Shown here in pieces: positions 39,820 through 50,834 of a stretch of 64,000 nt of DNA. Source of the DNA: Thermoclostridium stercorarium subsp. stercorarium DSM 8532. Lineage in GTDB: Bacteria; Bacillota; Clostridia; DSM-8532. The stretch is taken from contig NC_020134.1 of assembly GCF_000331995.1 (NCBI RefSeq), positions 2,206,002 to 2,270,001 on the forward strand, given 5' to 3'. Both the position numbers and the translations under genes were made by a program. The notes under the pieces were generated by a model. It was given only the letters and a program-made list of their open reading frames with translations, did no database searches and was not told the DNA's origin. How positions within the stretch are numbered: position 1 is the first letter of the stretch; the number at the start of each line of letters is the position of its first letter.

Positions 39820-40178
39820 TTAAAAAGCTTCTTCTATATGATTTATATTAACGGGTCTGTAATCCTTTGTCATAATTACTTCTATGACATCAAAGCTGAT
39901 TTCACAATCCGACATATTATATTCTTTCAGGAAACATGATGCAACCTTTTTTATCGTTTTCTGCTTTTTATACGACACGGCTTCGGCGGGTGTGCCGAAA
40001 ATATCTCCTGTTCTGGTCTTTACTTCCGCAAAGATAATTCTATTGTCCTTTACGGCAATAAGGTCTATTTCACCCAGTTTCCCCGCCCGGTAATTACGGC
40101 ACAGTATCCTGTAATTTTTCCGTTTCAGATACTCAACGGCAAAATCCTCGCCTTTTTCCCCAACCGTCTTGTATTCAT
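39820..40178 (-). pseudogene. yraN: YraN/UPF0102-family nuclease-like protein, frame interrupted near its start
   Basis: The conserved UPF0102 core is clear in one frame: VGEKGEDFAVEYL, NYRAGKLGEIDLI, FAEVKTRTG and IEEAF at the stop. That frame has no ATG, GTG or TTG between the preceding TGA (40197) and the first conserved residues. The only ATG with a ribosome binding site (AAGGAAA, ATG at 40178) is in the neighbouring frame and encodes MNTRRLGKK, which itself looks like the family N-terminus. A -1 shift in the GGGGAAAAAGG run (40161-40151) would join both parts into a normal 119-residue protein. This is either a real frameshift mutation, a one-base sequence error, or recoding. The location after ylqH is as in other Firmicutes. 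Confidence 0.75.
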
Positions 40179-40194
40179 CGGATTTCCTTCCCGT

Positions 40195-40512
40195 TCACTT
40201 CTCTGAATCGGCTGCAAGTTTTCCGAACTTTTCACCGGCTTTTTCATCCACACGGCTCACAAAGGCAAGTATTTCAGCCACCACTTCGTAAAGTTCCACA
40301 GGAATTTCGGAACCCACTTTAAGTTCGGATAATTTCGAGGCCAGGTCAGAATCCTCCACAACGGGGATTTTCTCTTCCTGTGCCTTTTCTATTATTTTTT
40401 CGGCAATCGCGCCTTTTCCCGACGCAATTATCCTCGGTGCATTGTCTTTATTCGGTGTGTAAGACAAAGCCGTTGCCCTTTTTATCTTTTTCTCTTCCCT
40501 TTTCTTTTCCAT
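40195..40512 (-). CDS. ylqH: FlhB-like C-terminal domain protein (YlqH family)
   Basis: A 105-residue protein resembling the cytoplasmic domain of the flagellar export switch FlhB (RATALSYTPNKDNAPRIIASGKG, EKIPVVEDSDLASKL), but with no membrane part and no NPTH autocleavage motif. Such proteins sit next to rnhB in Firmicutes and their function is unknown. It is 4 bases downstream of the YlqG-like gene. No flagellar cluster is nearby. Confidence 0.88.
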   Translation of the reverse strand: MEKKREEKKIKRATALSYTPNKDNAPRIIASGKGAIAEKIIEKAQEEKIPVVEDSDLASKLSELKVGSEIPVELYEVVAEILAFVSRVDEKAGEKFGKLAADSEK

Positions 40513-48885: not shown

Positions 48886-49635
48886 TCATGCCTTGTTATA
48901 ATTGACTATCGCAACATACTCATCAAGTTTCAGGCTGGCTCCCCCTATCAAACCACCGTCGATGTTCGGCATGTCAAAGAGCTCTTTCGCATTCGAGGCT
49001 TTAACGCTTCCGCCGTAAAGTATTCTGACACTTTCAGCCGTCTCCTCATCATAAAGCTCCTTAACCAGTTCACGAATTACATAGCATGCTTCTTCCGCCT
49101 GCTGAGCCGTTGCGGTTTTACCGGTGCCAATGGCCCAAATGGGTTCGTAAGCTATAACAAGTTTTGATACCTGCTCTTTTGTAAGGCCAAGCAGTGCAAT
49201 CTTTATCTGATATCGGATATGCTCTTTTGTAACTCCCTGCTCTCTTTGGGTAAGGCTTTCACCACAGCATATAATCGGAGTCATGCCTGCATTCAGTATT
49301 GCGTGGGCTTTTTTGTTTACTGTCTCATCGGTCTCGGCGAAGTACTCCCTGCGCTCTGAATGTCCGATAATAACGTACTGAACTCCCAGTTCTTTAAGCA
49401 TACTGCAGGATACTTCGCCTGTGTACGCACCGCTGTCCTCCCAGTGTACGTTCTGTGCTCCGACTTTAATGTTTGTACCCTTGCAGGTTTCAACCACCGC
49501 AGGAATGGCCACGTATGGCACCGCTACAACTACTTCGGTTTCGGCATCCTTAACTTTATCTTTCAGATTCTGTATGAATTCCACCGCTTCATTCGGTGTT
49601 TTATTCATTTTCCAGTTACCTGCCGCCATTTTCAT
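48886..49635 (-). CDS. tpiA: Triosephosphate isomerase
   Basis: Interconverts glyceraldehyde 3-phosphate and dihydroxyacetone phosphate. TIM barrel of 249 residues with AAGNWKMNK at residues 4-12, the catalytic His in [11 protein letters not shown] and the catalytic Glu in [11 protein letters not shown], then YGGSVKASN and GGLIGGASL. The N-terminus (MKMAAGNW) is slightly shorter than usual. The start overlaps the pgk stop by 4 bases. Confidence 0.98.
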
Positions 49636-50834
49636 TCTTTTTTTTTGTCCATCAGGCAGGCAATGCCGGGTAATTCTTTACCTTCAAGGAATTCCAGTGA
49701 AGCACCGCCACCTGTGGATATATGGGTAATCTTATCCGCGAAACCAAGCTGTTCAATGGCTGCTGCAGAATCTCCGCCTCCGACTATTGATATTGCGCCT
49801 GACTCGGCAACTGCTTCGGCAATTTTCTTCGTTCCCCTTGCAAAATTCGGGAATTCAAAAACTCCCATCGGACCGTTCCATACAATTGTCTTGGCTTTTT
49901 TAATTTCTTCACTGAACAGCTTAATGGTTGATTCACCGATATCCAGACCCATCCATCCGTCGGGTATTTCATTTGAAGCTACTTCCTTGTACTCGGTATC
50001 AGCGCTGAATTCCTTACCTACAACGTTACTTATGGGGAGAAGCAGTTTAACACCTTTCTTTTCTGCCTTTTCTATAAGCCCTTTGGCAAAATCCAGCTTG
50101 TCGTCCTCACAAATGGAATTTCCTATGCTGTATCCCTTAGCCTTAAGGAAGGTATATGCCATTCCTCCGCCGATAATCAGCGTATCAACCTTGTCAAGCA
50201 GATTTTCAATAACGGTAATTTTGTCTGAAACCTTGGCACCGCCCAGAATTGCAACAAACGGCCTTTCAGGATTGGTCAGTGCCTTGCCCATGATATCCAC
50301 TTCTTTTTTAATCAGGAAACCTGATACTGCGGGCAGATAGTCGGCCAGTCCGGCGGTGGAAGCATGTGCACGGTGAGCAGTACCGAAAGCGTCGTTTACA
50401 AATATATCCGCCATTGAAGCCAGTTCCTTTGCAAAAGCCGGATCATTCTTGGTTTCTTCCTTATGGAAACGCACATTTTCAAGCAACAAAACCTGGCCTT
50501 CCTTCAGTTCCTTAGCCTTGGTTTTCGCGTCCTCGCCGACGACATCCTTTGCAAGGATAACTTCCTGCCCCAGAAGTTCGCTGAGCCTTACTGCTACCGG
50601 TTTCATACTGTATTTGGGTTCAAAGCCTTCCTTAGGACGACCGAGGTGAGATACCAGTATTGTTTTTGCACCATGGTCAATCAGATACTTAATGGTCGGC
50701 AGCGCGGCGACAATACGCTTGTCATCGGTAATACGACCTTCACTGTCCAGCGGCACGTTGAAATCCACTCTTACAATAACCCTTTTCCCTTTAACGTCAA
50801 TATCCTCTATGCTCATTTTATTGTACATGCCCAT
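49632..50834 (-). CDS. pgk: Phosphoglycerate kinase
   Basis: ATP-forming glycolytic kinase of 400 residues. Visible signatures are [13 protein letters not shown] near 19-31, the substrate-binding HLGRPK and [28 protein letters not shown], and the nucleotide loop [13 protein letters not shown] near the C-terminus. It follows gap by about 130 bases that contain a hairpin, and overlaps tpiA by 4 bases. Confidence 0.99.

Follow-up and report, generated by a model that had tools for sequence, protein, structure and literature searches.

The reading frame of the UPF0102 family gene yraN in Thermoclostridium stercorarium subsp. stercorarium DSM 8532 is broken by a commonplace shortening of a single base, be it genuine or an artifact, and not by a site of special decoding. 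Specifically, the break is very probably a contraction of an A run that is private to this genome and reflects either a recent loss-of-function mutation or a homopolymer error, with programmed recoding neither needed nor indicated. The locus lies in the 64,000-nucleotide stretch of DNA that we analyzed (the window), and its features are as follows, where G001, G002, and G003 denote the other three species of the genus.

40195 to 40512, minus strand: ylqH (FlhB C-terminal-like), the upstream neighbor of yraN, with its TGA in phase with the yraN core.
40184 to 40189, minus strand: Shine-Dalgarno-like AAGGAA preceding ATG 40178; a similar AAGG occupies the equivalent place in G001 to G003.
40125 to 40178, minus strand: short open reading frame (ORF) of 17 amino acids from the orthologous yraN ATG, in the neighboring frame; the start and Shine-Dalgarno sequence are kept in the genus relatives.
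40151 to 40161, minus strand: frame junction GGGGAAAAAGG, with an A5 run at 40157 to 40153; the run is one A longer in G002, and this is the sole gap in the coding-region alignment.
39820 to 40194, minus strand: open frame of yraN (UPF0102), lacking a start codon, with its core at 39823 to 40152 and a PF02021 match.

The stop-to-stop frame at 39820 to 40194 spans 124 codons and contains the UPF0102 core. It matches PF02021 over the entire profile (positions 1 to 80 of 80) with an E value of 6.7e-26 and 90.9 bits (curated cutoff, 23.6); thus, yraN is a real gene, and a chance ORF is ruled out. The GEIDLIA and EVKTR motifs of the PD-(D/E)XK-like nuclease core are retained and align with those of relatives. 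Judged as a member of UPF0102/YraN, the window copy has the profile match and the core motif and lacks a continuous frame from a start codon. In its own frame, within 39820 to 40194 on the minus strand, the core is not preceded by any ATG, GTG, or TTG, and the first common start codon in that frame is a GTG at 39978, deep inside the core. The ATG at 40178 to 40176 is off by one frame relative to the core and runs into a TGA at 40127 to 40125, giving an unshifted product of 17 residues, MNTRRLGKKARILPLSI. At the junction, the minus strand reads GGGG (40161 to 40158), AAAAA (40157 to 40153), and GG (40152 to 40151). A sequence-only reading had described this layout correctly: a UPF0102 core open in one frame without a start codon, an ATG at 40178 with a ribosome binding site in the neighboring frame, and a meeting of the two frames at 40161 to 40151. 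Upstream, ylqH encodes a free-standing FlhB C-terminal-like protein and is situated between a FliK-like gene and yraN. Given the frame break, the ylqH frame continues into the yraN core, with which it is in phase, and the ylqH TGA at 40197 to 40195 is the only separator.

Comparison with relatives revealed that the frame break is private to the window genome among the genomes compared. The genus consists of four species including the window genome; none of the other three is very close, and G002 is the sister species. PF02021 was present in 57 of the 61 genomes searched, including all three congeners, and an in-frame start codon for the yraN core was found at every non-self locus read (45/45), leaving the window locus as the only one without. 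In G001 to G003, yraN is intact and encodes 119 amino acids in a single frame, starting with MNT or MNN where ATG 40178 aligns. The window copy shares with these genes the position of the start ATG, the Shine-Dalgarno sequence, the 119-codon length, and the core motifs; however, it is one base shorter at the A run, whereas theirs are read in one frame. When the window DNA is aligned with the three congeneric yraN genes, the coding region is free of gaps except for one base at the A run. The run is A6 in G002, which reads GGGAAAAAAGG, and A5 in the window (TTAGGGAAAAAAGGAGAG versus TTGGGGAAAAAGGCGAG at the same site). A contraction from A6 to A5 would fall a few codons past the normal start, and, as the sequence stands, ribosomes initiating at ATG 40178 would make the 17-residue peptide and no YraN. 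Inspection of the same locus in related genomes was the check proposed by the sequence-only reading, and the intact, continuous ORFs of the relatives, together with the A6 of G002, argue against recoding. A scan of genome contigs for close isolates returned a distant Dehalococcoidales contig as its sole match, and the exact junction sequence had no match in a scan of viral sequences.

The rest of the gene is constrained. The remaining 111 codons of yraN carry no other lesion, and substitutions are concentrated at third positions. Pairwise dN/dS was 0.17 for the window and G001, 0.13 for G001 and G002, and 0.12 for G002 and G003; in the window-G002 pair and some others, synonymous sites were saturated and yielded no ratio. 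An intact and constrained remainder implies that the break is recent, not real, or bypassed, and long-standing decay of yraN is unlikely. Loss of the gene would be tolerable in principle, since Bacillus subtilis, a genome of the control set, is without a PF02021 match.

One form of bypass would be −1 ribosomal frameshifting, programmed or tolerated, at G_AAA_AAG, which would join the two frames into a normal YraN. We consider this very unlikely, although the frame beyond the junction is unbroken and constrained and A_AAG is the shiftiest tetramer in Escherichia coli when strongly stimulated, with as much as 5.6% shifting when the stimulator is the IS3 pseudoknot (PMC4066793). Without stimulation, tetramers in E. 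coli are barely shifty or not shifty at all (0.147% versus a background of 0.112% [PMC4066793]), and stimulators are not apparent here: the RNA fold downstream of the junction is ordinary (z = −1.21, with 26 of 200 shuffles as good), and no Shine-Dalgarno-like stimulator from a published list was evident by reading the sequence 6 to 17 nucleotides upstream. The junction also fails the X_XXY_YYZ heptamer for tandem slippage, in that AAA allows the A-site lysine tRNA to re-pair, whereas the P-site tRNA would land on GAA. G_AAA_AAG is not rare: the 145 long ORFs in the 210 kb around the locus contain 24 in-frame copies. Furthermore, neither the break nor the slippery site is conserved in any relative, and in the relatives a single frame yields a single product, which leaves no evident purpose for programming. 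The earlier suggestion of kinship with the dnaX slippery site is weak. The A-site half, A_AAG, is common to the yraN junction and to −1 sites of the dnaX and IS3/IS911 type (A_AAA_AAG and relatives), and it is the only half that re-pairs perfectly; unlike those sites, the yraN junction has a G before AAA and hence a P-site half without re-pairing, no stimulator was found (downstream fold, z = −1.2), and there is no conservation. That yraN "requires" a −1 frameshift, as the sequence-only reading had put it, is unsupported, given that the relatives examined are all intact and that A5 in the window stands against A6 in G002.

The frame could also be restored in part of the mRNA by transcriptional slippage at the A run. 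There are bacteria in which such slippage rescues disrupted genes (PMC4256274, PMC1088944); however, the yraN run is only A5, selection against slippage typically becomes evident at nine bases (PMC1088944), and A/T runs as long as this one are common in the region, so we regard this route as extremely improbable. Translation of the core by readthrough of the UGA that ends ylqH, or from a rare start codon such as ACG at 40194, would draw on a core frame that shares the phase of ylqH and stays open as far as the TGA of that gene. Against this, such placement arises by chance in one case out of three, selenocysteine genes are reported to be missing in Clostridium stercorarium (PMC3593316), and the normal start ATG and Shine-Dalgarno sequence are conserved in the genus; readthrough or rare initiation is accordingly scarcely credible.

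An A-run contraction therefore remains the preferred reading. The break itself, its restriction to this genome, and the gap of a single base are observed, and the origin of the break is what we infer. A recent loss-of-function slippage mutation, at the strain or species level, may be responsible, with a chance slightly below even; a homopolymer undercount in the assembly is a serious candidate that likewise falls just short of an even chance. The genome also encodes a xylanase in which two CBM6 domains differ at only a few positions from PDB chains 1o8p/1nae and 1uy1, which come from C. stercorarium, making this the likely species. In the 454-based genome of T. stercorarium DSM 8532, which may be another assembly than that of the window, 35 homopolymer errors were corrected, many of them one missing A or T, and 34 pseudogenes are listed for the published genome (PMC4102724). 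These corrections and pseudogenes make error and mutation both plausible for yraN. The published corrections (PMC4102724, Table 1) resemble the yraN case in often being one missing A or T, although the yraN site could not be assigned to any entry among them. Hence, among the three options that the sequence-only reading had offered, recent mutation and assembly error are supported by the intact relatives and the A6 of G002, and recoding is not.

Across the ~126 kb for which a comparison with relatives was made, two frame breaks are known, in yraN and in a pgk-tpi fusion gene, and each is an A run one base short. Two is a lower bound, as the tblastn break scan is blind near gene ends and missed yraN itself. 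The two shortfalls mildly favor sequencing error, and the shortness of A5/A6 mildly favors mutation over it. Frame breaks are infrequent in the region, which speaks against assembly error, as does a genome that is one closed contig and rated 100% complete. Homopolymer length spectra gave no sign that long A/T runs are generally depleted in the assembly, and comparison of a further 400 kb of the genome with G001 contigs, overlapping over ~13 kb, added no break. We suggest that the annotation mark the yraN locus as a potential sequence error or recent pseudogene and not as a recoding candidate, a matter of little significance beyond annotation.

The second break has the following position.

48886 to 50834, minus strand: pgk-tpi fusion gene, split in the window; junction at 49646 to 49632, with A9 in the window and A10 in G001.

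A single ORF comprises pgk and tpi in G001 to G003 and in many further relatives, and such a fusion is known in Thermotoga maritima, going by Schurig 1995 as cited in PMC4256274. In the window, PGK ends in DKKKE followed by TGA (49634 to 49632), and the triosephosphate isomerase (TIM) start is an overlapping ATG at 49635. A homopolymer error could explain this split, as could transcriptional slippage or a true fission in which translation of the two parts is coupled. If the break is real, coupled re-initiation might supply TIM, or slippage at A9 might yield the fusion. The pgk-tpi junction is a better place in the window than yraN to look for real slippage. That the yraN A5 is real, with −1 slippage at G_AAA_AAG yielding useful YraN and keeping the gene under selection, and likewise at the A9 of pgk-tpi, is a highly unlikely combination.

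The break scan also returned candidates that we rejected. Other two-frame tblastn pairs, with L111 (106 amino acids) left apart, were antisense to longer ORFs or lay between ORFs. A third apparent break, ~10.6 kb outside the start of the window (G000:C1 2195381 to 2195503, minus strand), proved to be not a broken gene but a T-box-like leader, GGGTGGCACCGC. This leader, which gives a false break in tblastn, is conserved between species, and it precedes a 537-amino-acid ORF that by eye resembles anthranilate synthase.
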